DNA from: an uncultured Gammaproteobacteria bacterium | Lineage (GTDB): Bacteria > Pseudomonadota > Gammaproteobacteria > Pseudomonadales > Pseudohongiellaceae | Direction: 5' to 3' | DNA: 58,352 bases | NCBI GenBank assembly: GCA_913058135.1 | Contig: CAJXPR010000008.1 | Location: 1 to 58,352 of the forward strand | Shown here: positions 9,583 to 52,879 of the stretch, one piece after another | How positions within the stretch are numbered: the first letter of the stretch is position 1 | Layout of the letters: the number at the start of each line of letters is the position of its first letter | The notes under the pieces: generated by a model | Databases searched by the model: none | Seen by the model: only the letters and a program-made list of their open reading frames with translations | What the model was told of the DNA's origin: nothing | Translations under genes and position numbers: made by a program

Positions 9583-9740
9583 GCCGGACTGGCGTGCAGC
9601 GCGGCATGGACACGGGCGATAAAATTTACTACATTCGGTAATCAGGAGCGCCCGGGTCGGGCCTCTGGCAGTGACGCCACCCAGATTTTACCCATAGGTA
9701 GGGATGATGTACTCAGTTGCTGCCCAAGAACAAGCCATTG

Positions 9741-10760: not shown

Positions 10761-10768
10761 GACAGACG

Positions 10769-11836
10769 ATGCTGGCACTGAATCCGGAAACACTTAAAAA
10801 GCTACGTCGCTTTCGCCAGATCAAGCGAGGTTACTACAGCTTTCTGGCGCTGATGTTTCTGGTTTTTCTGTTCGTCATCGGCGAGCTGCTGATCAACAAC
10901 CGGGCCTTGATAGTCAGCTACGAAGGCGAACTGTATTTCCCGACCTACACGGCCTTCCATCCGGGCACGGATTTCGGTCTGCCATATTCCTATGAAACCA
11001 ATTACCGCGAACTAAAGGCCCGCTTTGCAGAGCAGGGCAGCGACAACTGGGTGCTGCTGCCGTTGGTACCCTACAGCGCCAACGAAAACCATTCCACCAC
11101 GGGCATTTTTCGACCCGAGCCACCGTCGCCGGAGTATCAGCATTATCTGGGCACTGACACTACCAGTCGGGATATTCTGGCGCGCCTGTTCTACGGCACC
11201 CGCACCGCTCTGTTCTTTGCTATCGCGTTTACGGCTGCCGTGTATTTTATCGGTATCGCCATCGGCGCCGCGATGGGTTACTTCGGTGGCATGTTTGATC
11301 TGCTGTTTCAGCGCGTCATTGAAATCTGGAGTAATGTGCCCTTCCTGTATATGGTCATTATCATCTTTTCCGTGATTCCGGATACATTCTCGATATTCTT
11401 TCGCATCATGGTGCTGCTGTCAGTGATGGTTCTGTTTTCCTGGACCTCGATGACCTACTTTATGCGTACCGAGACCTATAAACAGAAGGCGCGTGACTAC
11501 GTCGCATCGGCGCGTATCATCGGGGCGTCCAATACGCGCATTATTTTCAGGCATATTTTGCCCAATGTGCTGGCGACGCTGGTGACCTTTATGCCGTTCA
11601 CCGTCATTGCGGCCATTACCGCCATCACGGCGCTGGATTTTCTGGGTTTCGGCCTGCCGCCGCCCACGCCCAGCCTGGGTGAATTGTTGAAGCAGGGCAC
11701 CAGCAATTTGCGGACGGCACCCTGGATTGTGATGTCGGCGTTCGGCACCCTGGTGGTGCTGTTGACGCTGGTGACGTTCATCGGTGAAGCGATCCGTGAA
11801 TCGTTTGACCCGAAAAAATTTACTGTCTACAAATAA
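10769..11836 (+). CDS. YejE/OppC-like permease
   Basis: HYLGTDTTSRDILARLFYGTRTALFF; SARIIGASNTRIIFRHILPNVLATLV; FLGFGLPPPTPSLGELLKQG. Confidence 0.9.
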   Translation: MLALNPETLKKLRRFRQIKRGYYSFLALMFLVFLFVIGELLINNRALIVSYEGELYFPTYTAFHPGTDFGLPYSYETNYRELKARFAEQGSDNWVLLPLVPYSANENHSTTGIFRPEPPSPEYQHYLGTDTTSRDILARLFYGTRTALFFAIAFTAAVYFIGIAIGAAMGYFGGMFDLLFQRVIEIWSNVPFLYMVIIIFSVIPDTFSIFFRIMVLLSVMVLFSWTSMTYFMRTETYKQKARDYVASARIIGASNTRIIFRHILPNVLATLVTFMPFTVIAAITAITALDFLGFGLPPPTPSLGELLKQGTSNLRTAPWIVMSAFGTLVVLLTLVTFIGEAIRESFDPKKFTVYK

Positions 11837-11855
11837 ATTGTCGGAGGATATTGAG

Positions 11856-13805
11856 ATGAGCAGACTGTGGCGTACCGGCCTGGCCGGAGTGGTACTGGCA
11901 GGTTTTCTGACGGCCTGTGGCGGTGGTTCCGAGGAAGCACAGGTGCGCGACAATACCCAGGAAGTGCTGGACTACTATGCCGCGCACCCGGAGCTGTTTC
12001 AATTCAGGACCCCGGCAGATCTGCCCGCCGATCTGGCATGGGAAGACGGCATGGATCTGCCTGATCTGGGGTCGCCGGACGCGCAAAAAGGCGGCACGCA
12101 ATACGGTTCGATTCCGGACTACCCCCGGACCTTGCGTACCGTCGGACCGGACTCCAACGGAGCCTTCCGCCCCTGGTTGCTGGACGATGTCACGCTACCG
12201 CTGGCACATCTGCACCCGGATCGCGAGTTCGAATTTTATCCCGCGCTTGCTACTGAGTGGGCGGTCGATGAAGACACCGCGACCGTCTATGCCCGCCTGG
12301 ATCCCGATGCCACCTGGTCCGACGGTGTGCCAATCACCACTGATGACTTCATGTTCATGTTTTTCTTCCATCGCTCGGAATACATCGTAGCGCCCTGGTA
12401 TAACAACTACTACGACACCACGTTCAGCAATATCACCAAATACGACGATCACACCTTGTCGGTGACCATGAAGACCAACAAGCCGGATTTCCGTTACCAT
12501 ATTCTTGATCTGCGCCCTGAGCCGCAGCACCACTACAAAGAGCTCGGCGACGACTTTGTTGAACGCTACCAGTGGCGCTTTACCCCGACTACCGGCCCCT
12601 ATGTCATCGAGGAAGGTGATCTGGTGCAGGGACGCTCGGTCACGCTGACCCGTCTGGACAACTGGTGGGCCAAAGATAAAAAATTCTTCCGTAATCGCTA
12701 CAACGTGGATCGCGTGGTGTTGAATGTGATTCGTGACACCAACAATGTGTTCGAGTCATTCAAGCGTGGCGACATTGACCAGTTTGGTCTGAACCTGGCT
12801 GAGCACTGGTACGAAAAGCTGCCCAATGATGACCCTGATGTTGCCAACGGCTATATTCACAAGTCCGTGTTTTACAATCAGCGGCCGCGGCCCAACTATG
12901 GCCTGTGGATGAACACATCACGTCCCTTGTTGGACAATCAGGATGTGAGAACGGGGCTGCAATATGCGACCAACTGGGACCTGGTGATTGAAAGCTTTTT
13001 CCGCGGAGACTTTAGTCGCATGAATACGACCAGTGATGGTTATGGTGAATTTTCCCATCCTGACCTGCGGGCCAGACCGTTTGACATCGATATGGCACAG
13101 CAACACTTTGCTGCGGCCGGATTTGCCAACAGGGGGCCAGACGGCATTCTGGTCAATGAGCAGGGGCAGCGGCTGGCGTTTACCATCACCACGGGTTATG
13201 AGAGCCTGCGCGATATCCTGACCATTCTGCGCGAAGAGGCGGCCAAAGCCGGTGTTGAGTACCGGATTGAAGTGCTGGACCAGACTGCATCCTGGCAGAA
13301 AGTGCAGGAAAAGCAGCACGATATAGGGTTTGTGGCGCTGGGTGTCGGTGTGGAGATGTACCCTCGTTTCTGGGATACCATGCACTCTGACAATGCCTAT
13401 GATGACGCATTTCTGGATGATGGCAGTATCAATCCGGAGCGGCAATTGAAAGTTCAGACCAACAACATGGAGTCGCTGGCAAATTTTGAGCTCGACCAGA
13501 TGATTGATGTGTACACAGAATCCAGCGACGCTGAGGAGATGCTGGCACTGTCACATCAGATGCTGGAGTTCCATCACAATTACGCGTCCTTTGTGCCCGG
13601 CTTTGTGCAGGATTTCTATCGTATCGGCTATTGGCGCTGGGTCAAATATCCGGAATTTTTTAACCATCGCACACCGTCACTGGCCACCGAACTGCATGTG
13701 CACTGGATAGACACGGAATTGAAAGAACAGACCTTGGCTGCCCGCGCTGCCGGTGAAACCTTCGAGCCACAGATTCGTGTGTTCGATCAGTACCGCGTGC
13801 AGTGA
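11856..13805 (+). CDS. YejA-like peptide-binding lipoprotein (SBP family 5)
   Basis: Lipobox LTACGG; DDVTLPLAHLHPDREFEFYPALATEWAVDEDTATVYARLDPDATWSDGVPITTDDF; NWWAKDKKFFRNRYNVDRVVLNVIRD as in YejA-type proteins; start trimmed to 11856. Confidence 0.88.
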   Translation: MSRLWRTGLAGVVLAGFLTACGGGSEEAQVRDNTQEVLDYYAAHPELFQFRTPADLPADLAWEDGMDLPDLGSPDAQKGGTQYGSIPDYPRTLRTVGPDSNGAFRPWLLDDVTLPLAHLHPDREFEFYPALATEWAVDEDTATVYARLDPDATWSDGVPITTDDFMFMFFFHRSEYIVAPWYNNYYDTTFSNITKYDDHTLSVTMKTNKPDFRYHILDLRPEPQHHYKELGDDFVERYQWRFTPTTGPYVIEEGDLVQGRSVTLTRLDNWWAKDKKFFRNRYNVDRVVLNVIRDTNNVFESFKRGDIDQFGLNLAEHWYEKLPNDDPDVANGYIHKSVFYNQRPRPNYGLWMNTSRPLLDNQDVRTGLQYATNWDLVIESFFRGDFSRMNTTSDGYGEFSHPDLRARPFDIDMAQQHFAAAGFANRGPDGILVNEQGQRLAFTITTGYESLRDILTILREEAAKAGVEYRIEVLDQTASWQKVQEKQHDIGFVALGVGVEMYPRFWDTMHSDNAYDDAFLDDGSINPERQLKVQTNNMESLANFELDQMIDVYTESSDAEEMLALSHQMLEFHHNYASFVPGFVQDFYRIGYWRWVKYPEFFNHRTPSLATELHVHWIDTELKEQTLAARAAGETFEPQIRVFDQYRVQ

Positions 13806-13810
13806 TATCC

Positions 13811-14803
13811 ATGCTTGAGCCGATCCTGCAGCTGGAAAATCTGGTCACCGAGTTCGACACTGATGAGGGTCGGGTGCGCGCCGTTGACGATGTCAGCTTT
13901 TCGGTCAATGCCGGGGAAACGCTGGGTATTGTCGGCGAGTCCGGGTGCGGTAAAAGTGTCACCGCGCAATCCATCATGAGGCTGTTGCCGCAGCCCATGG
14001 GGCAGATTGTGTCTGGCCATATCCGGTTTCAGGGGCACGACCTTGCCAGCGTGTCGCTGGAGCAGATGCGCACCATCAGGGGGGCGCAGATTGGCATGGT
14101 GTTTCAGGAGCCGATGACGGCGCTGAACCCGGTGCACACTATCGGCCGGCAACTGGCTGAGGTGTTGTTACTGCATAAAAAAATCAGCAAGCGGGAGGCG
14201 CTGCGACAATCCGTCGAGATGCTGGACAAAGTGGGCATACCGGCCCCGGATATCCGTCTGGGTGAGTATCCGCACCAGCTCTCCGGTGGCATGCGCCAGC
14301 GGGTGGTCATTGCCATGGCCCTGGCGTGCCAGCCCAAGCTGTTGATTGCCGACGAGCCCACGACGGCGCTGGATGTCACCATTCAGGCGCAGATTCTGGA
14401 ACTGATCAAAGACCTGCAGCGGGACATGGGCATGGCGGTGATACTCATTACCCATGACCTGGGTGTGATCGCCGAAACCTCACAACAAGTCGTGGTCATG
14501 TACGCTGGCAAGGTGGCAGAGCAGGGCTCGGTATACGATGTCTTTGACCATCCGACTCACCCCTATACCCGTGGCTTGCTGGCATCCATCCCGCGACTGA
14601 ACACGACCCCCAAATCCGCACTCACCGTCATTCCCGGCATGGTGCCGGGATTGCTTGATCTGCCAGCGGGCTGTCGGTTTGCCAACCGTTGTCATTACTG
14701 TGTTGACAGTTGCACTGTCGCCTCGCCGCCGCCGGAGCAGGTCAGTGTCGGACACAGTGTCAGTTGTTATCGCTGGCATGATCTGCCGGAGGTGCCGGCA
14801 TGA
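13811..14803 (+). CDS. OppD-like ATPase
   Basis: [45 protein letters not shown] start at 13811 preferred over GTG at 13802. Confidence 0.92.
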
Positions 14804-15786
14804 CCGTTGATACGCAGACGCCGATTCTTGAGGTGCGGGATCTGAAAATGCACTTTCCGGTCAAGGAAGGCGTGTTCATGCGCACCGGCAAATACAACAA
14901 GGCTGTGGACGGGGTCAGTTTCTCGATCAAGCCCGGGGAAACGCTGGGGCTTGTCGGCGAATCGGGGTGCGGCAAATCAACCCTGGGACGCTGCATCGCC
15001 CGTCTGTATCAACCCACCAGTGGCGAGATCCTGTTCCGGGGTCAGGACATCAGTCGTTTGTCGCGCAAACAGCTGATGCCGTTCCGGCGCGACATACAAA
15101 TGATCTTTCAGGACCCGATGGAGTCGCTGAATTCGCGGCATACTGTCGGCGATATCATTGAAGAACCGCTGTTGGTGCAAGGTGTCGGCAATCGCGCAGG
15201 GCGCCAACGTCGGGTGCTTGAATTGCTGGATCTGGTGGGCCTGCCGGCACGGTCGGTGAGCCGCTATCCATTCGAGTTCTCCGGCGGTCAACGACAGCGC
15301 ATCGGCATTGCCCGCGCCATCGCGCTCAACCCTGGGCTGATCATCTGCGATGAGCCGGTGTCAGCGCTGGATGTGTCGATTCAAAGCCAGATCCTTAACC
15401 TGCTGATTGATCTGCAGCGGGAACTGAATCTGTCCTACCTGTTTATTGCCCATGATCTTGCCGTTGTAAAGCATATCTCGGATCGTATCGCGATCATGTA
15501 TCTGGGCAGGATTGCTGAGATCGGACCGGGTGAGGCAGTGTACGGGACGCCCAATCATCCTTACACGCAGTCACTGATCTCGGCCATTCCGGTGCCCGAC
15601 CCGCACCAAAGGGCCAACCGTGTTGTGCTCAGTGGTGATGTGCCCTCACCGATTGATCCGCCATCAGGGTGCAGCTTCCACACCCGCTGTCCGCGCGCGA
15701 CTGACATATGCCGCGAACAGGCGCCACCGCTGGCCCTGCACGGTGCCGGTGTAGCCCAGACGACAGCAGCCTGTCATCATATCTGA
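14800..15786 (+). CDS. OppF-like ATPase
   Basis: [55 protein letters not shown] overlap with upstream gene. Confidence 0.93.
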
Positions 15787-19445: not shown

Positions 19446-20366
19446 TCAGCCCTTGCCTTTCATCTTGTTCGGGCCTTTCAGGGAATCCTTCTCGATAAAC
19501 TCGATGATCGCCCCGGCGATATCCATGCCGGTGGCTTTTTCAATGCCTTCCAGTCCCGGAGACGAGTTGACCTCCAGCACCAGCGGGCCGTGATTGGAAC
19601 GGATGATGTCCACACCTGATACGTAAAGGCCCATGACCTGCGCAGCCTTGGTGGCCAGCTTACGCTCGTCGGGGCGCAGCTTGATGAGCTGTGCCGAACC
19701 ACCGCGGTGCAGATTGGAGCGATATTCGCCCGGTTGAGCGGTACGCTGCATGGCGGCCACGACCTTGTCGCCGACCACAAAGCAGCGGATATCGGATCCG
19801 CTGGCTTCCTTGACGAACTCCTGCACCAGAAAGTCCGCCTCCAGACCACGAAAGGCATTAATCAGGCTTTCTGCCGCCTTGCGGGTTTCCGCCAGCACCA
19901 CACCGTTGCCTTGTGTGCTTTTAAGCACCTTGACCAGCAGTGGCGCGCCGCCCACGGAATTGATCAGGTCGGTGGTGGCGTCTGCCGAGTGGGCGTAACT
20001 GGTTACCGGCTGACCGATGCCGCGCCGCGCCAGGAGCTGGTGGGCTCGCAGTTTGTCGCGCGAGCGGGTGATGGCAATTGATTCATTAACGGAGTATGTG
20101 CCGCCTACCTCAAACTGGCGCAGCACCGCAGCGCCATATTGGGTAACGCTGGCGCCGATACGCGGAATCACGGCATCAAACTCCAGTGCTTCGGGTTCGC
20201 CCTGGCCCTTGCCCTTGAAAAAGACCGTCGGGTTGTTGGCGGTGATGTTCATGTAACACTTAAGCACATCGATAACGCGCGCGTCGTGACCGCGTTCGCG
20301 GGCCGCCTCAAGCAGGCGTCTTGTGGAGTAAAGTTTAGCGTTACGTGACAAGACGCCGATTTTCAT
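19446..20366 (-). CDS. rimK: RimK: ribosomal protein S6 glutamate ligase (ATP-grasp)
   Basis: [68 protein letters not shown]. Confidence 0.93.
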
Positions 20367-20536
20367 GGTGAGGGTCCTTGCGAACAGAGCTTTGCAAATG
20401 GGAACGATATTTGGCTGCACCTGCCAAAGTCCAGGGCTGGTCCGCGGCGGCGCGCTAAGATATCACAACATAGTCGCTAAGCAATATCATCGCAAGCGGA
20501 CGGCACAAATATCCACCGGATTCAGCCGGCGGCCAA

Positions 20537-24596: not shown

Positions 24597-26330
24597 ATGT
24601 TAAACCTGGTGAAAATTGCCCTGGCTGCGCTTGCGTTGCTGGCCCTGACCCTGGTGGTCAACGCCGGTGTATTTGACGCCAACTGGCGCTGGGATGATAC
24701 CCAGATACTGCTGCACGCCCATCAGTATTCTTTCTGGCAGGATTTCACGCGGCCGGAAGTCTGGCAACAGTTTTCGCCTGCCAATTTGACGCCTTGGCTG
24801 ATTTTTTCCTTTGAGGTCGACATGATTCTGTTCGGCCTTACGCCTGCTGCCTTCTACCTGCATCAGTTGGTAGCCATTGCGGCGGCCGGGTTGTTGCTGT
24901 TCATGTGTCTGAACCTGTGGTGCCGCGCCGTGTTCGCGCTGGCCGGCAGCGCGCTGTTTATCGTGGGTTTGCCCACCATGCTGGTCGCCGAGCAATTGAT
25001 GACGCGGCATTACGTGGAGGGGCTGGTATTCGCGCTGGCGGCGCTCTACGGGTTTGTCATGTACCTGCGCACGGAGCGTCGCGGCGCGCTGGTCCTGGCG
25101 CTGCTGATGTATGTGCTGGCGGTGACTGCCAAGGAAATTTATGTGCCTTTGCCAGCCTTGCTGCTTCTGGTGCCTGATGGCACCTGGGGACGTCGCATCA
25201 AGGCCAGCCTGCCGTTTTTTATCGTGACGGTTCTATACGCGCTCTGGCGAGGTTACATGCTGGGTTCGTACAGCGGTGGTTATGTCGACAGTAGCGAATA
25301 CCTGACATTTGCTTTTGTGGGCGAGGTGTTGGCCAGTTTTGGGCGGTTCCCGGTGTTGCTGACGGGCCTCGGCTGGCCGGTGGTCGTGTTGCTGTTTCTG
25401 GGCGTGTGGGGTATCTATCTGGCCCGGCAGCGCCGAGTGCCGTGGCGGGCCTTGCTGGTAGCCGCACTGGTGCTGTTGCCATTGGTGCCGCTGGTCCGCT
25501 CTCCGGGCATTGTGCTGGCCGACCGTTATCTGCTGCTGCCGTGGGTCATGGTGTGTTTTGCGCTGGCCTGGTGTGTGGACAGGATCATCGTCGTGAGCAA
25601 CAAAGCCGTGGCCGGTAACAACAGGGCGTCGTCGAAGGCCCCTGCCGGGACCACTTCTTCTGCGACTGCCTCCTCTGTAACCTCTGCGCCGGCAATGGTG
25701 CTGGCCGGCACGGCCTTGCCCATCATACTGGCGATCGCCCTGCTGCATGCCTTGCCGGTGCGTCAGGCATTGGCAACGGTGGGCACCGAGTTTGACGTGC
25801 AGGCGCAATTCCTGTGGCAGAATGAGGACACGCATGCGTTTGTGCCATCGGGCAACGTGTTGCCGGCGTTCTGGTTTGTCACCGGTCTAAGAGATCTGAA
25901 AGCGCGCATCAGCGGCCAGGGTTCGCCGCTGCCCGTGGTCGACGATCTCTATCTGGCGCAGCAGCCTGATACCCGTCTGTTTACCTACGATGTCAATTGT
26001 CAGTGCATGCGCGATGTCACCGGTGCCATACCTGAACGTCTGGCGCAGCACCGTGAGCGTCTGCGCGCAGATGCGGAGCTGTCGTTGTCCTACCGCTACC
26101 AGCAGGGGTATTTCAGCTGGCAGTTTGGTCCCTGGCAGGAGGGCAGTTACCATGTGGTGTCCGATACACTGGGTGTATTGCCCTTGCCACCGGCCGGGCA
26201 GTTGCGGGTAACACTGGCGGACAACGCACCCTTTTATCTGCGTTACACATCACCCGAAGGCTGGATAACATATTCGGCACTTAATCGTGTGGTGCGTGAT
26301 GGCCCTGCCGTCGAGTGGTCAAGGAATTGA
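24597..26330 (+). CDS. Polytopic membrane protein, probable GT-C-type glycosyltransferase
   Basis: Many TM segments; acidic motif NWRWDDTQILLH in the first extracytoplasmic loop; next to a GT2 gene. Confidence 0.55.
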   Translation: MLNLVKIALAALALLALTLVVNAGVFDANWRWDDTQILLHAHQYSFWQDFTRPEVWQQFSPANLTPWLIFSFEVDMILFGLTPAAFYLHQLVAIAAAGLLLFMCLNLWCRAVFALAGSALFIVGLPTMLVAEQLMTRHYVEGLVFALAALYGFVMYLRTERRGALVLALLMYVLAVTAKEIYVPLPALLLLVPDGTWGRRIKASLPFFIVTVLYALWRGYMLGSYSGGYVDSSEYLTFAFVGEVLASFGRFPVLLTGLGWPVVVLLFLGVWGIYLARQRRVPWRALLVAALVLLPLVPLVRSPGIVLADRYLLLPWVMVCFALAWCVDRIIVVSNKAVAGNNRASSKAPAGTTSSATASSVTSAPAMVLAGTALPIILAIALLHALPVRQALATVGTEFDVQAQFLWQNEDTHAFVPSGNVLPAFWFVTGLRDLKARISGQGSPLPVVDDLYLAQQPDTRLFTYDVNCQCMRDVTGAIPERLAQHRERLRADAELSLSYRYQQGYFSWQFGPWQEGSYHVVSDTLGVLPLPPAGQLRVTLADNAPFYLRYTSPEGWITYSALNRVVRDGPAVEWSRN

Positions 26331-31664: not shown

Positions 31665-31707
31665 AACGCGTATAGTGCGGCGATTTTTTCGCGGAGTTCC
31701 CGAACGT

Positions 31708-33252
31708 ATGTCTCAGCTTTATCTGGTTGTTGATGATCTCGCGCAGTGGACACACACCCTGCCCGGTGAGGCGGTCATCAGCTTTGAAACCTATCTTACC
31801 GAACACCCGATCAAGGGACAGAAGAAAACCCGCATCATTAATCTGTGCAATACTGACCAGTATCTGAGCACCGGGTATTACTGCTCTCTGCTGGCCGAGG
31901 CACGTGGCCACAAGGTACTACCGCCGGCCAATACGCTGACCGATCTGAGCAGCCAGCAGTTGACGCTGGTGCAGGCCGCCGAAGTGCTGGAAGACCTTGA
32001 CCAGAAAGACCTGACCCGCACCGACGATGGTTACGCCTTCCGCATCTATTTTGGCCGAACCGCATTACCACAGCTCAAGATGCTGGCGCGGCGTCTGTTT
32101 GAGCGTTTCCCCTGTCCCATTCTGGAGGTACGCCTGGCATTTATTCCGGGCATAGCCGCCGCGACGCCGGCTGTGCCTGCAGAAGCCGTGGCGCCGGTCG
32201 ATGCCGGTGGTGATGCCGCGGTATCGGACAGCTGGCAGATACGCACAGTGCACGCCGTGGCCTATGCGGAACTGGACGAGCAGGAGATGCCGGAGTTCGT
32301 CTCAGCGCTGGAGAAATTCACCCAGAGCGTCTGGCGTAAACCGCGCAGCAGCAAAGCCAGTCGCTGGGACATGGCGATTCTGGTAAACCCACGCGAAAAA
32401 TTGCCACCCAGTGACGCCAAGGCGCTGAAAAAAATGGAGCGGGCGGCACAGAAAATGGGTTTTGCCGTGGAGTTTATCGGCCCGCAGGACTATGCCCGCC
32501 TGGGTGAGTTTGACGCGCTGTTTATTCGCGAAACCACGGCCATTGATCATCATACCTATCGCTTCGCGCGCAAGGCAGAAATTGAAGGCCTGGTCGTCAT
32601 GGATGACCCCACGTCGATTCTGCGCTGCTGCAACAAAGTGTTCCTGCAGGATGCCTTTACCTACAATGACGTGCCCACGCCATTGACCCGCATTGTGTCG
32701 TCCAGTGACGAAGCCTCGCTGGATAATCTGGAAAGTGTATTCAGTTATCCGATCGTGCTGAAAATTCCCAACAGCGCGTTTTCAGTTGGTGTCATGAAGG
32801 CTGAAGACCGGGCCATGTTAAAGAAAATGCTGAGTGAGCTGCTCGCCAAGTCCGCTCTGATTCTGGCGCAGGAATACCTGTACACCGAGTTCGACTGGCG
32901 CGTGGGTGTGCTCAATAACAGGCCGCTGTTTGCCTGCCGGTATTTCATGGCCAAGGGCCACTGGCAGATCTACAATCACGGTGAGGATCGCATCGGCAGT
33001 GGCGGCTGGGAAACCCTGCCTACCTATGAAGTGCCGAAGGCGGTACTGGATGCTGCGCTGAAGTCGGCCAGAATCATCGGTGACGGCCTGTATGGTATTG
33101 ATATCAAGCAGCAGGGTAACAAGGTTTACGTGATTGAGGTAAACGACAACCCCAGCCTCGAGGAAGGCGTAGAGGATGCCTTTATCGGTGATGAGCTTTA
33201 CATGCAGATTATGAGCGAGTTTGCGCGGCGCCTCGAGAACCGCGGGCGCTGA
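31708..33252 (+). CDS. RimK-family ATP-grasp ligase with N-terminal RimK-associated domain
   Basis: N-terminal KKTRIINLCNTDQYLSTGYYCSLLAEARGHKVLP; ATP-grasp YPIVLKIPNSAFSVGVMKAED and GIDIKQQGNKVYVIEVNDNPSLEEGVED; start trimmed to 31708. Confidence 0.88.
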   Translation: MSQLYLVVDDLAQWTHTLPGEAVISFETYLTEHPIKGQKKTRIINLCNTDQYLSTGYYCSLLAEARGHKVLPPANTLTDLSSQQLTLVQAAEVLEDLDQKDLTRTDDGYAFRIYFGRTALPQLKMLARRLFERFPCPILEVRLAFIPGIAAATPAVPAEAVAPVDAGGDAAVSDSWQIRTVHAVAYAELDEQEMPEFVSALEKFTQSVWRKPRSSKASRWDMAILVNPREKLPPSDAKALKKMERAAQKMGFAVEFIGPQDYARLGEFDALFIRETTAIDHHTYRFARKAEIEGLVVMDDPTSILRCCNKVFLQDAFTYNDVPTPLTRIVSSSDEASLDNLESVFSYPIVLKIPNSAFSVGVMKAEDRAMLKKMLSELLAKSALILAQEYLYTEFDWRVGVLNNRPLFACRYFMAKGHWQIYNHGEDRIGSGGWETLPTYEVPKAVLDAALKSARIIGDGLYGIDIKQQGNKVYVIEVNDNPSLEEGVEDAFIGDELYMQIMSEFARRLENRGR

Positions 33253-34360
33253 TCACCACTGCTGTGCGCAGCTTGTCCTTGCCAAACTGTGACATGCGGC
33301 TGAAGTCATTGCGGGCAATGGGCAGATCTTCACAATCCAGCCCGGTCTGCTCTTCCAGTGACGGGTCCGGGTCGTGCACAAAAAAGCAGGCATCATCAAA
33401 GGCAGTGATGGTGACCCAGTGCGGCGCTTTTTTGCGGTCCAGTCTGTAGCTGCTGACCAGTGCCAGCACGATGGCCCCATCCTTGATCGCCTGTTCCAGT
33501 TCCAGTTGGGTAACATCCTGATAGTGCACCGGGATGTTGCTGGCACTGACCCGTTCCAGAAACTGGTCATGCACCAGCGCCATGATCAGCTTCTTGTCCG
33601 GATCACGGACACCTTCCAGAAACAGGGGGCCGGTCTGGTTGACGTAGATCCTGGCATTGAAGCCACGTTTATGGGCGGCCAGTGCCAGGCCGAACGGGTG
33701 ACAGCCACCGTGCCCGGACGTCATGAAGATAGTCGTCGCTTCGCGCCAGATGTCGAGTTCCGTGGCCTGGTCGGGTTGCCGACGTGCGTCCAGCGTTGCC
33801 ATCGCCATCATCAGCGAGGCCGGGCCGCAGGTAAAGCTGGTGGTCTGCTGGTACCAGGGAACGGTATGACCGCGTCGGCGTTTGGGCGCATCGCGGATGA
33901 TCTTCTGCATGCGCAGGGCATCGCGATGGTCCTCGTAGTAATCCTCAAGCGTGCCAAACGCAACATAACCGGCGCTTTCATACAGCCGGATGGCAGCAGC
34001 ATTGTCTTTGGCCACTTCCAGGCGCATGAAAAAGCGCTGGCGATTGACTGACGCGGTTTCCAGCGCCTGCAGCAGTTTAGCGGCGATGCCCTTGCCGCGC
34101 GCCTCCTGCGCTATGGCAATGGAATACAAACGCGCAAGATTTGTGGCGCCATGGAACAGCACCAGGCCATAACCCAGCAGGCGTCCATGTTCGACCGCCA
34201 CCAGGAATTCGCGATTGGATGCCTGGATCCAGTGCCTCAGGCGCCGACGACTCAGCCGATCAGTATCAAAACTGGCCTTTTCCAGGTCATGCAGGGCGTC
34301 AAGATCGTCCAGCTCCGCTGGCCTGATCCGGACGCTACCCTTGGTTTTAGCCTGCGGCAT
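33209..34360 (-). CDS. GNAT acetyltransferase - C39-like cysteine peptidase fusion
   Basis: GNAT: RIRPAELDDLDALHDLE, ARGKGIAAKLLQALE, RLYESAGYVAFG; peptidase: WYQQTTSFTCGPASLMMAM, HWVTITAFDD, HDPDPS. Confidence 0.88.
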   Translation of the reverse strand: MPQAKTKGSVRIRPAELDDLDALHDLEKASFDTDRLSRRRLRHWIQASNREFLVAVEHGRLLGYGLVLFHGATNLARLYSIAIAQEARGKGIAAKLLQALETASVNRQRFFMRLEVAKDNAAAIRLYESAGYVAFGTLEDYYEDHRDALRMQKIIRDAPKRRRGHTVPWYQQTTSFTCGPASLMMAMATLDARRQPDQATELDIWREATTIFMTSGHGGCHPFGLALAAHKRGFNARIYVNQTGPLFLEGVRDPDKKLIMALVHDQFLERVSASNIPVHYQDVTQLELEQAIKDGAIVLALVSSYRLDRKKAPHWVTITAFDDACFFVHDPDPSLEEQTGLDCEDLPIARNDFSRMSQFGKDKLRTAVVISARGSRGAAQTRS

Positions 34361-34377: not shown

Positions 34378-35022
34378 TTACTGAATAGCAACAATCTGCA
34401 GTTCAACACGTCGGTTTGACGCACGGCCGGACTCGGTGTCGTTGCTGGCTATCGGCTGATCCGGGCCCATACCCTGACTGATCAGCCGGTTCTGATCAAT
34501 GCCGGTGCTGGCCAGGTAGTTGGCAACACTGGTGGCGCGTCGATTGGACAAATCGTAGTTGTAGTCACGCGAGCCGGTAGAATCAGTATGGCCGGTGACC
34601 CGCAGACGCGTATCAGTAAACTTGTACAGCACCTGTGACACGGACTCCAGTACCGGTTCGAAGTTTGACCGGATGGTATAGGAATCGGTCGCGAAGGTGA
34701 TATTGCCGGGCATGATCAGGTCCAGTTGATCACCATTACGCCGCACCTGCACCCCGGTGCCTTGCAGCTCTTCGCGCAGTTCGGCCTCCTGGGCGTCCAT
34801 GTAGGCGCCCACGCCAGCGCCAATAGCGCCGCAGCCCAGCGCCGCATTACGGGCGTGCTGACTACTGTCGGCGGAACCAATCAGGCCGCAGACAACACCG
34901 CCGATTGCGCCATAAGTGGCCGCGCGTCGTGCCTGTTGCTCGCCAGTGAACGGGTTGGTGGTACAGGCCGCCATGGCCACAGTTGTCAGAATCAATAAGG
35001 GAAATCTTAACAGTTTTGACAT
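34378..35022 (-). CDS. OmpA-family lipoprotein (YiaD-like)
   Basis: Lipobox MAACTT; glycine-zipper-like segment; LRVTGHTDSTGSRDYNYDLSNRRATSVANYL, GRASNRRVELQI. Confidence 0.9.
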   Translation of the reverse strand: MSKLLRFPLLILTTVAMAACTTNPFTGEQQARRAATYGAIGGVVCGLIGSADSSQHARNAALGCGAIGAGVGAYMDAQEAELREELQGTGVQVRRNGDQLDLIMPGNITFATDSYTIRSNFEPVLESVSQVLYKFTDTRLRVTGHTDSTGSRDYNYDLSNRRATSVANYLASTGIDQNRLISQGMGPDQPIASNDTESGRASNRRVELQIVAIQ

Positions 35023-35154
35023 AATCATCACTCCTTTGTGAACACCACAATGTGTCCAGTCTATCATGTCGCAAGATACATTAACGTTACATTAACGGAT
35101 CAGCGCGCAGATATATTCCGGGCGAGCGACAGTCGGGGGAAAAAACGGTCGGGA

Positions 35155-36165
35155 CTAATCAGTAGAGAGCATGGCGCGGGCCAGGGCGCGCCCGCCAAGC
35201 CAGGCACCCTCCGCTCGCCCACCGTGCAACCAGTCGCCGCACAGACCCAGCTTCAGGGCGGCGTCCCAGACAAAAGCCCGGCTGCCCGATGCTGACAAGG
35301 GTTCAGCGTAGCGCCAGCGATGGACGGTGACGGTGTCAGGTTCAGGGCCGCCCAGATCTGCAAACGCCGCTGTCAGCGCTTGCATGACAGACTCAGCGCT
35401 GTCTTCCAGGTGTTGCTCACTCCAGTCGGTGGTGGCGTGGAGAACCCAGGTTTCCCGCTCCGGGCGGCCGGGTTTGCTATTGTCACGGGCGATCCAGCGT
35501 AACGGTCCGGCATTGACAAAGGCAGCAGCAAAAGGCAGTGGCACCGCCGCGCTGAATTGCAGTATTGCCGCCCAGCAGGGGCGCATCAGGCTGGCCTCAC
35601 ACAATGTTGTAATGGCTGCCGTGTGCGGCCGGGTCAACTCGGCCGCCTGTGCCGACGGAAGAGCCAGAACCACGGCATCAAAGACGGTGTTTGCCAGCGC
35701 TTCACGGTCGACAGTTGAATCGTCAAAATGCAATTGCCAGCGGTGATCGTGATTGCTCAGCCCGATGACGCGCGCCGACGTGGTGACGGTTAGCGAGTCG
35801 GCCAGCCAGCGCGCCGGCGATGACATGCGTGGCATACCGACATAACGCCGGGTAGTGCCGTCATTGCGGTGCGAGGAGCCATCACCGAGCACGGCAATAT
35901 CAGGCTGCCACAGATCCGCCACCCCGGCGTCTTGCCAGCGCGCCAGCTCCTGCACAAACAGCGGGTCACGAGCGGTAAAATACTGGGCGCCGTGGTCGGC
36001 CTGCCAGCCCTCACCGCGCCGTGTGCTCATGCGCCCACCGGTGCCGCGCGATTTGTCGAATACGCTGACCCGCATGCCCAGGGATTCCAGCTGTATCGCG
36101 CAGGACAGGCCGGCGATGCCGGCACCGATCACGGCAATGTGAGGCGTATGCAGCACACAGCTCAT
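35155..36165 (-). CDS. FAD/NAD(P)-binding oxidoreductase (renalase-like)
   Basis: IAVIGAGIAGLSCAIQLESLGMRVSVFDKSRGTGGRMSTRR; C-terminal LGLCGDWLHGGRAEGAWLGG. Confidence 0.88.
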   Translation of the reverse strand: MSCVLHTPHIAVIGAGIAGLSCAIQLESLGMRVSVFDKSRGTGGRMSTRRGEGWQADHGAQYFTARDPLFVQELARWQDAGVADLWQPDIAVLGDGSSHRNDGTTRRYVGMPRMSSPARWLADSLTVTTSARVIGLSNHDHRWQLHFDDSTVDREALANTVFDAVVLALPSAQAAELTRPHTAAITTLCEASLMRPCWAAILQFSAAVPLPFAAAFVNAGPLRWIARDNSKPGRPERETWVLHATTDWSEQHLEDSAESVMQALTAAFADLGGPEPDTVTVHRWRYAEPLSASGSRAFVWDAALKLGLCGDWLHGGRAEGAWLGGRALARAMLSTD

Positions 36166-36722
36166 TGCATGTTTCGCTGCTGGTCGACTTCAATCAATTC
36201 GTCCATGGGAAAGTCGCTGGCGCGAGCCTGTGCCAGCAGTGTCTGGTAAATCTCGTCCTCCAGCATCGGCTCGCGTGCCAGAATCCACAAATAACCCCGG
36301 GTCGCACCGCTGATCATGGCCCACTGATAATTGTCGTGATCCAGGGCTATGATGTGGTAACCGCCGTAGAAAGGACCGAAGAAGCTCACTTCCAGTGAGC
36401 CCCGATCAGGATCGCCAAGGAACCTGGCACGGCCCTCAGCTTCTTCCCACTGCTGCTCTTCTTCGTTGTAGCCCCGGTTTAACACGCGCACGCTGTTGTC
36501 TTCCTGCAATTCGTAGTCGGCGGTCACATTGCTGAGGCCGCGCTCGAAGCGGTGATCCAGTCGTGCAATTTCGTACCAGCGACCGGTATAGCGATTGATG
36601 TCAAAGTTTTCGACCACGGTCAGGCCATCGGGCACAGAGGTGGAACACGCAGCCAGCATGCCGGCCAGCAGCACGGCCATCAGTGGGCGAACGAAAAAGA
36701 CTCGGTTATATTCTGTATGCAT
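36162..36722 (-). CDS. blc: Lipocalin (Blc-like) lipoprotein
   Basis: Lipobox LAACST; FDINRYTGRWYEIARLDHRFERGLSNVTADY; GYHIIALDHDNYQWAMISGATRGYLWILARE. Confidence 0.92.
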   Translation of the reverse strand: MHTEYNRVFFVRPLMAVLLAGMLAACSTSVPDGLTVVENFDINRYTGRWYEIARLDHRFERGLSNVTADYELQEDNSVRVLNRGYNEEEQQWEEAEGRARFLGDPDRGSLEVSFFGPFYGGYHIIALDHDNYQWAMISGATRGYLWILAREPMLEDEIYQTLLAQARASDFPMDELIEVDQQRNMQ

Positions 36723-36736
36723 AATAAAGTCACCTG

Positions 36737-37483
36737 TCACCATGTTATGGATTTGCCTGCCCAGTCAAGATAGCTGGCGTCGCCATCAATGGGCAGATCT
36801 GACGAAATCGTGAGCAGCCGCTCTGCCACAAAATCGGGGCTGAACAGCTTGTCCTGTGGAACATTGCGTTGAAACGGCTTTGACAGCTCAGTATCCACCG
36901 TGCCCGGGTGAAACGCCACCAGTTTGACATTGGGGGCGCGCCGCGCATATTCGACGGCAGCGGTCCTGATGACCATGTTCAACGCCGCCTTGGACGCCCG
37001 GTAACTGTACCAGCCGCCTTTGCGGTTATCCGAGATGCTACCAACGCGGGCACTGAGTGTGAACACCCGGCACGGGATATCACTCCGTACGGCGTCCAAC
37101 AGATAAGACAGCCACAAGGTCGGCATCACGGTATTGACACGCAATACCTCCAGCATGCTGTCCATGTGCAGATCTTCGACGCGCTTCTCCGGTTTGATGG
37201 TCCCGGTGTGCAGGATGCCGGTGCTGATGACGACCAGCCGGATGCGGCCGTGCCAGGGTTTCAGCTGTTGCACCAGTTGGATGATGCCGGGTTCGGTGTA
37301 GTCGCAGGCAAAGGTGTGCAAACAGGCATCTGCCGTATGAGGTAATGCCTCGGGTCGGCGACAGACCGCCAGAATGTCGCAGTCGGGGTTTTCTGTGCCC
37401 AGGCGGCGGATGATGGCGCCGCCGATGGCACTGCCGGCGCCGATGATCAGGCAGGCCTGTCGTTCGTGATCAGTGCTCATCAC
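36737..37483 (-). CDS. Short-chain dehydrogenase/reductase family protein
   Basis: ACLIIGAGSAIGGAIIRRL Rossmann motif; YSYRASKAALNMVIRT active site; FHPGTVDTELS. Confidence 0.9.
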   Translation of the reverse strand: MMSTDHERQACLIIGAGSAIGGAIIRRLGTENPDCDILAVCRRPEALPHTADACLHTFACDYTEPGIIQLVQQLKPWHGRIRLVVISTGILHTGTIKPEKRVEDLHMDSMLEVLRVNTVMPTLWLSYLLDAVRSDIPCRVFTLSARVGSISDNRKGGWYSYRASKAALNMVIRTAAVEYARRAPNVKLVAFHPGTVDTELSKPFQRNVPQDKLFSPDFVAERLLTISSDLPIDGDASYLDWAGKSITW

Positions 37484-39009
37484 AGTGCGTCCAGGTCGTT
37501 CAGCAAGTGGTCGGCGCGTCTCATCAGCGCCTGCTTTCTGTCTTCTGCCATCTTGTCGTAGCTGCGGTAGATCATGGTCATTCTCGGGTTGCTGGCGAAC
37601 GCGTCGCGATGACGGTCCATGAAGTGCCAGTACAGGCTGTTGAACGGACAGCTGTTGTCATCGGTGCTGGTCTTCACCGTGTATCGACAGTGTTTGCAAT
37701 AGTCTGACATCTTATTGATGTAATTGCCCGAGGCGGCATAGGGCTTGCTGCCCAGCAGGCCATCGTCAGCGTGCATCACCATGCCGAGGGTGTTGGGCAA
37801 CTCCACCCAGTCGTAGGCATCGGCGTAGACCGCCAGATACCACTCACAGATGTCCGCCGGGGCAATGCCGGCCAGCAGGGCGAAGTTGCCGGTCACCATC
37901 AGGCGTTGAATGTGATGGGCATAGGCGTGCTCAAAAGTATTGTGGAAGGCTTCACGCATGCAGTTCATGTCTGTGTTGCCGGTCCAGTAATAGGCCGGCA
38001 GCGGGCGAGTATTGCCCAGACCATTGTTGCTGGCGTAGGCGGGCATCATCAGCCAGTACAGACCGCGCACGTACTCACGCCACCCCAGGATCTGCCTGAC
38101 AAAACCTTCAGTAGCATTCAGTGGCGCTTTCCCTGCCCGGTAGGCGCTGACGGCGGCGTCACAGACTTCGCGCGGACTCAGCAAACCACAATTAATGCTG
38201 GTCGACAGCAGACTGTGGAACATGAAGGACTCGCCCTGGGTCATGGCATCCTGGAAGTCACCAAACCATGGCAGGCGATTGTGCACAAACTCTTCCAGCG
38301 CCTGCAGCGCCTGTTTGCGTGTGACCGGCCAGTTAAAGCGGGCCAGAGTGCCCGGGTGATTGGCAAAGTGCTCCTCGACCAGCGCAAATACGCGCTGGTC
38401 GTCCTCGCTGTATGAAAAAGCCGGCAGCCCTGGCAGCGGGGGATCGCCCCGGTAAGGACGCCGGTTACTGCTGTCAAAATTCCACTCGCCGCCTGCCGGC
38501 TGTTTGCCGTCCATCAGCAGCTTGTGGTCCCGGCGCATTTCCCGGTAGAAGTACTCCATGCGCAACTGTTTGCGGCCACGCGCCCAGTCGGCAAAACGCG
38601 ATTTGCTGCACATGAAACGGTCGTCGTTGAGTACGGTTACCGGTATGCTCAACGTGTGTTGCCAGTTACTGACAATGTCATGGTGCAAACGGTACTCACC
38701 GCACTCGGTCATGATCAGTTGGTCAATGCTCCGGCTGGCGCAAATGTTGCTGACAACGTCCAGCAGCGTCTGCCGGGCACCATCGGCAGCAAAGGCGTGA
38801 TAGTGGACACGCCAGCCTGCGTCTTGCAGCTGTCGGGAAAAGTGCCGCATCGCACAGAATATCAGGGCGATTTTCTGTTTGTGATGTTTGACATAGCGGG
38901 CTTCGGCACTGACTTCCGCCATGACGATCAGGTCAGTGCTTTTGTCGAGTTCGCGCAGACAGGAAAGTTCGGCACTCAGCTGGTCGCCCAGAATCAGGGC
39001 CAGTTTCAT
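37480..39009 (-). CDS. FeS-type bacterial cryptochrome / (6-4) photolyase-related protein
   Basis: MKLALILGDQLS; FVRQILGWREYVRGLYW; candidate cluster Cys residues NCMREAFHN and YCKHCRYTVKTSTDDNSCPFNSLYWHF. Confidence 0.93.
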   Translation of the reverse strand: MKLALILGDQLSAELSCLRELDKSTDLIVMAEVSAEARYVKHHKQKIALIFCAMRHFSRQLQDAGWRVHYHAFAADGARQTLLDVVSNICASRSIDQLIMTECGEYRLHHDIVSNWQHTLSIPVTVLNDDRFMCSKSRFADWARGRKQLRMEYFYREMRRDHKLLMDGKQPAGGEWNFDSSNRRPYRGDPPLPGLPAFSYSEDDQRVFALVEEHFANHPGTLARFNWPVTRKQALQALEEFVHNRLPWFGDFQDAMTQGESFMFHSLLSTSINCGLLSPREVCDAAVSAYRAGKAPLNATEGFVRQILGWREYVRGLYWLMMPAYASNNGLGNTRPLPAYYWTGNTDMNCMREAFHNTFEHAYAHHIQRLMVTGNFALLAGIAPADICEWYLAVYADAYDWVELPNTLGMVMHADDGLLGSKPYAASGNYINKMSDYCKHCRYTVKTSTDDNSCPFNSLYWHFMDRHRDAFASNPRMTMIYRSYDKMAEDRKQALMRRADHLLNDLDAL

Positions 39010-39389
39010 CGGCAGTTGTCATCACACACGTTGCGCCGGCCAAACACTGCCGAGATACGGTGGCGGTGGCGCGCAAAAAACCGGTAGACTACGTCGGCAA
39101 TCGGGCGGATAAACGGCCAGCGCAGAAACGCGAACCAGTGGCCCCTGCCAACCAGGTGCCAGGCCTCGCAGGTCACATCCAGGCCATAGATCATGGTGCC
39201 GTCGGCCCGCTCTCCATGCAGCATTTTGTCGGCAGCCACCATATCGATATACGGAAAGCGCCGGGCAAAGTCAGCGGCGTTGATGTCCTGCAGGTCCAGC
39301 GCCGCGGATTCATCCAGGCGCCGCAGATGGTTGATTTCCGTCAGGCATAAAGGGCACTGGCCATCGTAGAATACCCGCAGTTGAGTCAT
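39006..39389 (-). CDS. DCC-family (DUF393) thiol-disulfide oxidoreductase-like protein
   Basis: VFYDGQCPLCLTEINHLRRLD motif; ATGA overlap with the photolyase gene. Confidence 0.88.
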   Translation of the reverse strand: MTQLRVFYDGQCPLCLTEINHLRRLDESAALDLQDINAADFARRFPYIDMVAADKMLHGERADGTMIYGLDVTCEAWHLVGRGHWFAFLRWPFIRPIADVVYRFFARHRHRISAVFGRRNVCDDNCR

Positions 39390-42680: not shown

Positions 42681-43715
42681 TTAGTCCTGCTCCTGGCGGC
42701 GCTTGCCCGCCAGGATGCCGGGCAAGGCATAGTTGCCCTCGTGGCAGGCGTACTCGTAGATGCGCTCATCCTGCGCCCGGGCGTATAACACCATCTCGGC
42801 AGTCCAGGGCTGCGTGTAGGCCACCGGATCGTTCATGGTGAAGCTGTAGACGATTTCTCCCGGCGATACCATGCGGAATGTCTCCGTCACTTCCAGGCCC
42901 GGGCCTGACCCGTAGTGTGACTGCTGTGGATGCATATTACGCGTGGTCACCACCAGCGTGTCGTCCTGCCAGCGGCCCACCGAATCGCCCATCCATTTAT
43001 GTACCTCGGGCGGCAGGTGCTCGCCGTGCAAACGGATAATGCGGGCGTCGTGCATCATCTCCGCCATGATCATCACGTAGTCTTCCGTCTGCACAATCTG
43101 GTAATTGTTATTGTAGATGATGGGCATCATCGGCGGCCCGGCGCTGGAGTTGGAGGTGCGGAAGTCGTAGAACAGCAGGCAGCGCTCGCCGATGGTGGCC
43201 ATCTCCGGACCCAGAAACGCATCGTCACCGTGCAGGTCGCGCCAGTGCTCCATCAGGTTCTGTTCCGGCGCACCCTCACGGAACGGGATCTGGCCGTCGG
43301 GCGGATCGATGATCATGGAGGTGCGGTATTCACCGTCGATATTCAGCACCTGGGTGCCACGGTCCAGCCAGAAGGTGTTGTAGGCGGCGGCAGTGTTGCC
43401 ATCGGTGGGCGGCGGTCGGTCGGGATCGCTGGGCGCGAATGACTGTTGCTCGCGCTGCTGCGCGGTCTGTTGCAGGCGCTCTGCCTCCTCAGCGCTCATT
43501 GCGCGCTGGTCGCCGAAGCGCTCGGGGCGTTGTAAAGGTGTTTGTGTGCCGTTGGTCCAGATGCCCTGCAGATCGGGCTTGCCATCCGGTGTGCGGGGCA
43601 GTGCCTGCGTTTGCGCAATGGCAGCCAGGCTGCTGCCCAGGGCGAGCAGGCCGACCAGTGCGGTGCAAGCGGCGCGGGTTGGGAAGTTGCCGGGTTTCCT
43701 GTTGTTATTCAGCAT
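42681..43715 (-). CDS. Exported protein of the PDGKPDLQGIW family, unknown function
   Basis: Signal peptide ending AAIAQ; LPRTPDGKPDLQGIWTNGT; ERCLLFYDFRTSNSSAGPPMMPIIYNNNYQIVQTEDYVMIMAEMMHDARIIRL. Confidence 0.75.
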   Translation of the reverse strand: MLNNNRKPGNFPTRAACTALVGLLALGSSLAAIAQTQALPRTPDGKPDLQGIWTNGTQTPLQRPERFGDQRAMSAEEAERLQQTAQQREQQSFAPSDPDRPPPTDGNTAAAYNTFWLDRGTQVLNIDGEYRTSMIIDPPDGQIPFREGAPEQNLMEHWRDLHGDDAFLGPEMATIGERCLLFYDFRTSNSSAGPPMMPIIYNNNYQIVQTEDYVMIMAEMMHDARIIRLHGEHLPPEVHKWMGDSVGRWQDDTLVVTTRNMHPQQSHYGSGPGLEVTETFRMVSPGEIVYSFTMNDPVAYTQPWTAEMVLYARAQDERIYEYACHEGNYALPGILAGKRRQEQD

Positions 43716-43803
43716 TGTGATACCTGCAATTGGGGTGATCGGCCTGACTACTATAACTGAAAATGGCGAAGAGCAGGGCAGGCGAAATATTTTCGCGCAT
43801 CGT

Positions 43804-43826
43804 ATTGACAATCATTCCTATTCGCG
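43804..43826. promoter_or_regulatory. Possible Fur-box-like site upstream of bfd
   Basis: TTGACAATCATTCCTATTCGCGT resembles overlapping GATAAT/ATTATC hexamers imperfectly. Confidence 0.35.
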
Positions 43827-50406: not shown

Positions 50407-50560
50407 GGCCAAATCCCTGATTGTCAGGCGATTGAGGTTAGCCTGTTTTTCCGGTGCAGGCAATGCAGGCGCCGGGCATGGTCACCCGCGTGCATTTGTT
50501 TTGACATGAATGGGCGCGGCTTCTATGCTGATGTCCGGACATTATCACCGGAGAATAACA

Positions 50561-52879
50561 ATGCGTAAGCCCGTGCTCTCTGTCACCTCAATGTTTGTGT
50601 CATCCCTGCTGGTTCTCAGCGCCTGCTCCGAGCAGACCGAATCCCCGCCTGTGACGTCAGCGACAGAGCAACCCGAATACCGTTACCAGACGGATATCCG
50701 CTGGACCAGCTATGGCATTCCGCATGTCAGAGCCGAAGACTGGGGCAGTCTCGGGTATGGCTTTGCCTATGCCACCGCGCGTGACGCAGTCTGCACCATG
50801 GCCCGTGATGTGGTGATGGTCAACGGCGAGCTGTCCCTTAACTTTGGTGAAGGCGGTGGCAATATGGAAAGTGACATATTCCATCGTGCCGTGCTCGATG
50901 AGGCCATGATTAACACCTACCGGGATGGCCAAAGCGAAAAAGCCAACGAGTTTTCGGCGGGCTATGTTGACGGCTACAACCGCTACCTGGCGGAACACGG
51001 TGACGATCTGCCGCCTGCGTGCGCGGACACCGACTGGGTGCGCAGCATTACCGAGCTCGATGTTGACAAGCTGACCATTGGTGTCGGCATTCGTTACGGA
51101 CTGGCGTTGTTTCAGCGCGAGATGGCCAATGCAGCGCCTCCGGGCATGCCGGTCGCCAGTCTGGACAGTGACTTCGTTATCGACGCCGGCATTGGCAGCA
51201 ATGCCGTGGCCATGGGCCGCGCGGTCACCGAATCCGGTCGTGGTCTGCTGCTGGGCAATCCGCATTACCCCTGGCAGGGTTCGTCCCGTTTTCACCTGAT
51301 TCATACCACCATACCGGGCGAACTTGATGTCATGGGTGTGAGCCTGTACACCACCAACCGGGTTGCCATCGGTTTCAATCATGATGTGGCCTGGACGCAC
51401 ACGGTGTCCACCGGCATGCGTTCCACCGTGTATGCCCTGGAGCTGGACCCGGAGAACCCCACCCGTTACCGCTATGGCGACGAGTACAGGGACATGGAGC
51501 GGGTCAGCATCGAGGTGCCGGTGACCAATCAGGAAGGCGGTGTCAGCACGGTCGCGCGTGACGTCTACATGAGCCATTACGGCCCGCTGGTAGTCTCCGA
51601 CCAGTTGCCATGGACCGACACCACTGCGTTTGCCATACGTGACGTCAACCTTTACAACGACAAGTCCGCAGCAACCTATGACGCGCTGAACACCGCACGT
51701 AATATTGATGAAGTGGAAGCAGCATTGAGCCTGCAGGGTGTGTCCTGGGTCAACACCATTGCCGCCGACAGTGATGGCACCGCCTTTTATGCTGACATCA
51801 GCGTGGTGCCCAATGTTGACAGCGCGCTGATTGAGGCCTGCCGCATTGATGCCGACAATGTGCCATCCAGGGTCGTGCTGCTCAACGGCAGCAACCCCGA
51901 GTGCGAATGGTATGACTCCGATGAATCAGAGATACCTGGCGCTATGCCGGCAGATGACATGCCGCGCATCCGTCGTGACGACTATGTCCACAATGCCAAT
52001 GACAGTTACTGGTTGACCACGCCGCGCGAACCGCTGGAAGGTTATTCGCCCATTATCGGATCTGAGCGCACGCCGGTCAGTTTGCGCACTCGCGCCGGGC
52101 TGAGTTTTATCGAAGAAGCACTGGCCACGGGCGAAAAGATGGGGCCACAACACATTCAGGACATGTTGTTCAGTCACCGCCATTTTGGTGCCGAACTGTT
52201 CCTGGACGAGGTGCTGGCACTATGCACTGATCACAGCGAACCGGTGATGCTGGACGGCAACGAGGTCGATATTACCGCGAGCTGTGGTGTGCTGGCCGAC
52301 TGGGATCGGCGCAGCGACATCGACAGTCGCGGCGCCCACATCTGGCGTGAGTTCTGGCGGCAGGCAGCGGCCATTCCGGATCGTTACGCAGTGCCGTTTG
52401 ACGCCAGTGACCCGGTCAACACACCACGGCAGCTGGCCACGGACCAGCCGGCGGTGCGCTCAGGATTATTGCAGGCACTGGCCTATGCACAGACCTTTTT
52501 CCAGGACCAGGGTATAGCCCTGGATGCCACCTGGGGGTCGTTGCAGTACGAACCACGCAATGAGGAGCAGATTCCCATTCCCGGTGGGGATGGCGGCGCC
52601 GGCATGTGGAGTGTGATCACCTCACAGTTCAACCCTGAGGTTGGCGCCTACACACCCATCCTGCATGGCAACAGCTACATGCAGGTGATCAGTTGGGATG
52701 AGGACGGGCGCGTGGATCCGCGCGGCATTCTGAGCTACTCACAGTCCGAGGATCCTCGGTCTGCGCATTTTGCCGATCAGACCCGCCTGTATTCACAAAG
52801 CCAGTGGCTGGATCTGCCCTTCCACGAGGAAGACATCCTGGCAGATCCTGCCCTGCAGACCTTGACACTGCGCGAGTAA
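50561..52879 (+). CDS. Penicillin acylase / acyl-homoserine-lactone acylase-type Ntn hydrolase, predicted lipoprotein
   Basis: Lipobox LVLSACSE; IRWTSYGIPHVRAEDWGSLGYGFAYATARD; autoprocessing site GSNAVAMG; NPHYPWQGSSRFHLIH; start trimmed to 50561. Confidence 0.88.
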   Translation: MRKPVLSVTSMFVSSLLVLSACSEQTESPPVTSATEQPEYRYQTDIRWTSYGIPHVRAEDWGSLGYGFAYATARDAVCTMARDVVMVNGELSLNFGEGGGNMESDIFHRAVLDEAMINTYRDGQSEKANEFSAGYVDGYNRYLAEHGDDLPPACADTDWVRSITELDVDKLTIGVGIRYGLALFQREMANAAPPGMPVASLDSDFVIDAGIGSNAVAMGRAVTESGRGLLLGNPHYPWQGSSRFHLIHTTIPGELDVMGVSLYTTNRVAIGFNHDVAWTHTVSTGMRSTVYALELDPENPTRYRYGDEYRDMERVSIEVPVTNQEGGVSTVARDVYMSHYGPLVVSDQLPWTDTTAFAIRDVNLYNDKSAATYDALNTARNIDEVEAALSLQGVSWVNTIAADSDGTAFYADISVVPNVDSALIEACRIDADNVPSRVVLLNGSNPECEWYDSDESEIPGAMPADDMPRIRRDDYVHNANDSYWLTTPREPLEGYSPIIGSERTPVSLRTRAGLSFIEEALATGEKMGPQHIQDMLFSHRHFGAELFLDEVLALCTDHSEPVMLDGNEVDITASCGVLADWDRRSDIDSRGAHIWREFWRQAAAIPDRYAVPFDASDPVNTPRQLATDQPAVRSGLLQALAYAQTFFQDQGIALDATWGSLQYEPRNEEQIPIPGGDGGAGMWSVITSQFNPEVGAYTPILHGNSYMQVISWDEDGRVDPRGILSYSQSEDPRSAHFADQTRLYSQSQWLDLPFHEEDILADPALQTLTLRE

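Follow-up and report, generated by a model that had tools for sequence, protein, structure and literature searches.

A RimK-like ATP-grasp ligase and a GNAT–C39-like peptidase fusion recur as neighbors across bacteria and are candidates for making and cutting a common peptide

In the window (the whole stretch of 58,352 nucleotides of uncultured Gammaproteobacteria DNA analyzed here), a gene for an RLAN/RimK-like ATP-grasp ligase lies convergent with one for a GNAT acyltransferase fused to a C39-like papain-fold peptidase domain, DUF3335 (Table 1), and the association of the RLAN ligase with the C39 domain is far beyond chance. Because the families travel together, the ligase and the GNAT–C39 protein almost certainly act on one common peptide. 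Iyer, Abhiman, Burroughs and Aravind in 2009 reportedly predicted an RLAN-ATP-grasp/GNAT-papain-like peptidase neighborhood for peptide synthesis or modification, and the pair itself was thus most likely predicted already; the window matches that reported system in its RLAN-RimK-like ATP-grasp fusion, its adjacent GNAT-DUF3335 gene, and its intact residues in three domains. To our knowledge, the rule that GNAT forms the core and the ligase clade with a second gene context, both described below, are sharper than published descriptions. Across the literature examined, no experimental study of an RLAN ligase was found, and these families were named only in a remark in a 2023 JBC paper, which cites Iyer et al. 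2009 for DUF3335 fused to GNAT (PMC10318531).

Table 1. Coordinates of the ligase and GNAT–C39 features in the window
Feature	Position	Strand	Details and basis
RLAN/RimK-like ATP-grasp ligase	31708-33252	+	514 aa from ATG; Pfam, AF2, conserved residues
Ligase, longer GTG form	31675-33252	+	525 aa; ORF table
RLAN domain region	31708-32400 (end approximate)	+	Pfam match
Overlap of convergent 3' ends, 44 bp	33209-33252	.	ORF table, sequence
GNAT–C39-like (DUF3335) fusion	33209-34360	-	383 aa; Pfam, AF2
C39-like papain-fold peptidase domain	33250-33862	-	residues 167-370; Q172/C178/H314/D330
RimI/Ard1-like GNAT domain	33898-34330	-	residues ~11-154; RGKGIA acetyl-CoA motif, Glu115, Tyr127

The ligase exhibited Pfam matches to RLAN (E=1.4e-40, residues 38-155) and RimK (E=2.9e-11, residues 331-497; both in GTG-form numbering), bearing out the earlier note, which had read it as a RimK-associated N-terminal domain joined to an ATP-grasp core. 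Alignment with homologues backs the ATG at 31708 as the start, and a GGAG is found upstream of it in the sequence. The AF2 model has a pLDDT of 84, falling below 50 at residues 151-171, approximately where the homologue alignment places a lineage-specific Ala/Pro/Gly-rich insertion. Five residues (K352, R398, D465, E477, and N479) are invariant across 33 ligase homologues. The nearest PDB folds to the ATP-grasp half in Foldseek are RimK, LysX, and ArgX (TMt ~0.74-0.81), with RimK complexed with RpsF also among the closest; the Foldseek matches listed concern the ATP-grasp and GNAT domains, and none the RLAN or C39 part. The RGG arginine position of canonical RimK and LysX is occupied by Ser in 20/33 ligases and by Arg in 0/33, and Glu specificity is therefore not transferable from RimK.

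Pfam likewise resolved the convergent protein into the fusion that had been proposed from its sequence, with a GNAT part (PF00583, E=8.8e-17, residues 22-132) and a C39-like part (PF11814, E=1.8e-91, residues 167-370); its AF2 model has a pLDDT of 91 and a pTM of 0.86. The protein contains the peptidase motifs (QQTTSFTCGP at residue 171, HWVTI at 314, and HDPDP at 329), and the Gln/Cys/His/Asp set judged intact in the earlier note held up among 27 homologues, with Gln172, Cys178, and His314 invariant and position 330 occupied by Asp (24 homologues) or Glu (3). The folds nearest to the GNAT domain are Ard1 (TMt 0.92) and RimI (TMt 0.86-0.89; Foldseek), and two RimI-type residues, Glu115 and Tyr127, are kept in 25/27 and 23/27 homologues, respectively. 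The domain has this fold and these residues in common with the S18 N-acetyltransferase RimI but does not reach the NCBIfam rimI cut-off (6e-22, 78.2 bits, against 86.4). In a Porticoccus MAG (G444:C35:53648-54740), the GNAT and C39 parts occupy two overlapping frames, which reflects either a genuine split of the gene or a frameshift from assembly.

Among 299 genomes of the window's phylum, RLAN was detected in 60, DUF3335 in 51, and both in 50, the latter distributed over 20 family codes. The C39 domain is present in 50/60 RLAN genomes versus 1/239 others (Fisher p=1.4e-45, counting genomes as independent, which genomes are not). A second sample of 144 genomes, from the phylum of a Bacteriovoracaceae MAG, contained RLAN in 17 and DUF3335 in 12, the latter in 12/17 RLAN genomes versus 0/127 others (p=6e-14, on the same counting). 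The changing orientations and the recurrence in a second phylum are a better argument than the p-values. In the first phylum, C39 lies within 5 kb of the ligase in 48/50 genomes, with the domain matches separated by a median of 177 bp, and these 48 pairs comprise 26 in the order C39-then-ligase, four ligase-then-C39, 16 divergent, and two convergent (including the window); all 12 second-phylum pairs are adjacent and divergent. The earlier note had regarded the two families as recurrent bacterial neighbors and had named lack of co-occurrence or loss of catalytic residues as what would refute its proposal; association in both phyla and conservation of those residues were found instead.

Two genes that converge, as those of the window do, are not one operon, and this could be taken to mean that they are chance neighbors with no functional link. 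The neighborhood statistics refute that reading, as do the orientations in two phyla and the next relative, an Oceanococcus locus (L103, 66/59% identity), which keeps the pair alone amid different flanks; the probability of chance neighbors is negligible. L103 has a gap between the genes, and the 44-bp overlap, which the earlier note does not mention, is not kept there. The window flanks SURF1 and an OmpA lipoprotein were rejected as parts of the system, being absent around the pair in L103. The OmpA-like lipoprotein belongs to a row at 34378-39389 (-) that also encodes FAD amine oxidase-like, lipocalin Blc-like, SDR, photolyase-related DPRP, and DCC1-like proteins. RLAN and DUF3335/C39 are each single-copy in the window's genome. 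The pair is spread over many marine and soil bacteria; the ligase is present in ~1/5 of the genomes sampled from the window's phylum and in the culturable genera Marinobacter, Pseudomonas, Alteromonas, Pseudoalteromonas, and Microbulbifer.

It is the GNAT that constantly accompanies the ligase, with the C39 peptidase an optional part. Inspection of 40 ligase neighborhoods detected a stand-alone member of the same GNAT family adjoining 13/14 checked ligases without nearby C39 in the first phylum sample. Six ligase loci have no adjacent GNAT (L067, L104, L105, L123, L129, and L146), and an unlinked GNAT–C39 gene is present elsewhere in 6/6 of these genomes. In locus L085, a GNAT is fused to the ligase N terminus with a GNAT–C39 gene next door, and GNAT and ligase therefore probably share a substrate. 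A FastTree phylogeny of 128 ligases requires no fewer than 14 changes of C39 state, by gain or loss; for GNAT-only loci, the minimum across its well-supported branches is 10. The root of this tree was not inferred, and gain and loss of C39 are not separated on it. The set of ligase, acyltransferase, and peptidase envisaged in the earlier note stands as regards the acyltransferase, whereas the peptidase comes and goes. In a tree of GNAT domains, stand-alone and fused forms partly separate with weak support, and no count of fusion breaks is taken from it.

Such frequent changes of C39 state might be expected if the C39 half were a peptidase that chiefly processes or clears a substrate of its own and is only loosely tied to the GNAT-ligase product, as might the occurrence of DUF3335 without RLAN (G008 and the Methanosarcina acetivorans control) and of additional copies at a distance from the ligase (L089). 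This appears improbable, as the domain is found in only 1/239 and 0/127 RLAN-free genomes of the two phylum samples, is usually fused to GNAT, and has a C39-like counterpart beside the ligase even in the clade described next. The L089 copies, at 5136-6194 (-) and 14189-15397 (+), are GNAT–C39-like genes without a ligase, the GNAT half of which lacks the usual motifs.

In the second phylum, 5/5 RLAN genomes without DUF3335 exhibited a different context (context B), in which the ligase has two neighbors, a carboxylate-amine ligase resembling GCS2 and a C39-like peptidase from a different subfamily with Gln/Cys/His/Asp kept. In 3/5 of these genomes (L210, L213, and L214), an FGase-like gene was also detected, and a Legionella adelaidensis plasmid carries a ligase-GCS2-FGase row. 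The five ligases and that of L. adelaidensis form one clade with 97% SH-like support, nested in the GNAT-associated ligases. In one ligase clade, the place of GNAT has thus been taken by a GCS2-like ligase, in many cases accompanied by an FGase-like hydrolase, and by a C39-like peptidase of the clade's own. Iyer et al. 2009 are said to have discussed GCS2/FGase links to such ligases. Other genes recur beside the pair in part of the loci: DUF2817, one member of which has a weak AstE_AspA match, adjoins it in methanotrophs, Hydrogenovibrio, and f37/f38 genomes but is missing from that of the window; DUF155, the RMND1 family with its mitoribosome link, recurs in loci of Glaciecola/Paraglaciecola, Teredinibacter, HdN1, and f37; and a 2OG-Fe(II) oxygenase recurs in Porticoccaceae and Halieaceae loci. 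DUF2817 and the GCS2- and FGase-like genes come from families whose targets are N-acyl amino acids or carboxylate-amine bonds.

The domains, residues, and neighborhood are consistent with the suggestion of the earlier note that the proteins together make and cut amide bonds. From the shared neighborhood and the intact catalytic residues, both observed, we infer capping, coupling, cleavage, and cap removal. A tentative reading, to which we give not quite an even chance, is one enzymatic system that makes and breaks a soluble N-capped acidic peptide, either a metabolite or a tag precursor. The RimI-like GNAT would cap an amino acid or short peptide at its alpha-amine with an acyl group, probably acetyl; the RLAN ATP-grasp enzyme would activate a free carboxylate with ATP and couple at least one amino acid, probably an acidic one such as Glu; the GNAT-fused C39-like domain would cleave the product; and in some lineages the AstE/AspA-like DUF2817 hydrolase may remove the cap. 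The product would be made and turned over by a logic comparable to that of the N-acetylglutaminylglutamine amide (NAGGN) pathway, with other families. A small acylated acidic peptide is favored because GNAT is swapped for GCS2/FGase-like genes and because of the AstE-like gene, and it would also suit the lack of a conserved small ORF as ribosomal substrate. Against it, the nearest structures (RimI/Ard1 and RimK/LysX/ArgX) mostly act on protein ends, NAGGN and RLAN are not linked, the RGG arginine is replaced, and DUF2817 occurs in only a subset of loci.

The main rival to the N-capped peptide is protein-tail modification, in which the ligase would extend a protein C-terminal tail, the GNAT would acetylate an N terminus or the added residues, and C39 would trim, as RimK and RimB do on S6. 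The fold relatives favor protein ends: the closest ligase folds are RimK (also with RpsF), LysX, and ArgX, and the GNAT is nearest to the N-terminal acetyltransferases Ard1 and RimI. RimB trimming and RloABC are ligase/protease pairs of like logic (PMC12239564), and DUF155 recurs nearby. However, one clade has replaced the GNAT with GCS2/FGase-like genes, the RimK arginine is not kept, and the window has a canonical RimK of its own 11 kb from the RLAN ligase, at 19446-20420 (-) (PF08443 9.5e-65, Rimk_N 5.5e-38). Nor was any conserved small ORF found near the pair in 121 neighborhoods (the window and L062-L181), a search that the earlier note had proposed; the candidates were rejected as out-of-frame shadows confined to a Marinobacter synteny block. 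We regard protein-tail modification as somewhat less likely than the N-capped peptide. The substrate named in the earlier note, a peptide or protein tail, survives as just one option, and the DUF2817 and GCS2/FGase-like genes point to a small N-acylated peptide at least as well as to a tail. An extension of the N-capped peptide reading, which we regard as rather unlikely in full, would place RLAN ligases at the center of a modular, unrecognized pathway for N-blocked acidic peptides in at least two phyla, with an interchangeable amine-blocking step (RimI-like GNAT or GCS2-like plus FGase-like enzymes), a C39-like peptidase and a deacylase for turnover, and a new class of peptide metabolite or tag as its product. 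Once shown, the ligase product would provide a function for several large families annotated as of unknown function, namely RLAN, DUF3335, and perhaps DUF2817 and bacterial DUF155.

Several known systems resemble the pair in part. Canonical RimK, the RpsF C-terminal glutamate ligase, shares with the window ligase the ATP-grasp fold (TMt ~0.74-0.79) and, with RimB, the idea of a ligase plus protease; however, the window ligase has RLAN rather than Rimk_N, scores 67.8 against the 143.4-bit family cut-off, and has lost the RGG arginine. LysX and ArgX, which work with the carrier LysW, are the nearest ATP-grasp structures besides RimK, and LysX and the ligase both have an HW motif ahead of the glycine pair, but no conserved small ORF (e.g., a carrier gene) lies beside the pair and no Lys/Arg biosynthesis genes are among the annotated neighbors. 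RloABC, a retropepsin with a membrane transglutaminase-like protein and an ATP-grasp enzyme, combines ATP-grasp with a protease as here, but its protease is a secreted aspartic one accompanied by a membrane protein, and RLAN, GNAT, and C39 are not described there (PMC12239564). The NAGGN osmolyte pathway combines AsnO, the peptide-bond-forming GNAT/ATP-grasp fusion Ngg, and a peptidase (PMC8070244), an assembly with parallels in the pair and in the GNAT-ligase fusion of L085. Its ATP-grasp and peptidase families differ from those of the window, AsnO was not seen, and the NAGGN synthetase exhibited neither association with nor exclusion of RLAN (7/28, p=0.46); TIGR03103 (NAGGN synthetase) gave no match over its cut-off in G000. 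In one genome, a GNAT–C39/DUF2817/DUF155 cluster lies ~5 kb from a NAGGN synthetase gene (G006:C1:239696-247894).

The locus lacks the conserved nearby precursor ORF of RiPP/graspetide systems, it matched none of the PADLOC models of defense systems, including known anti-phage systems, and phage tblastn with the GNAT–C39 protein gave no match. PA1345, by gene order, is presumably the RLAN ligase of P. aeruginosa. Its control by CpxR was rejected, the motif match being without DAP-Seq support (PMC12802237). Elsewhere in the window, ORFs at 24597-26330 (+) (577 aa) and 42681-43811 (-) (376 aa) have no Pfam match at 1e-4, a penicillin amidase family protein is encoded at 50510-52879 (+) (2e-119), and 3507-15786 (+) holds two oligopeptide/dipeptide ABC transporter gene sets (SBP_bac_5, permease, and oligo_HPY ATPases).
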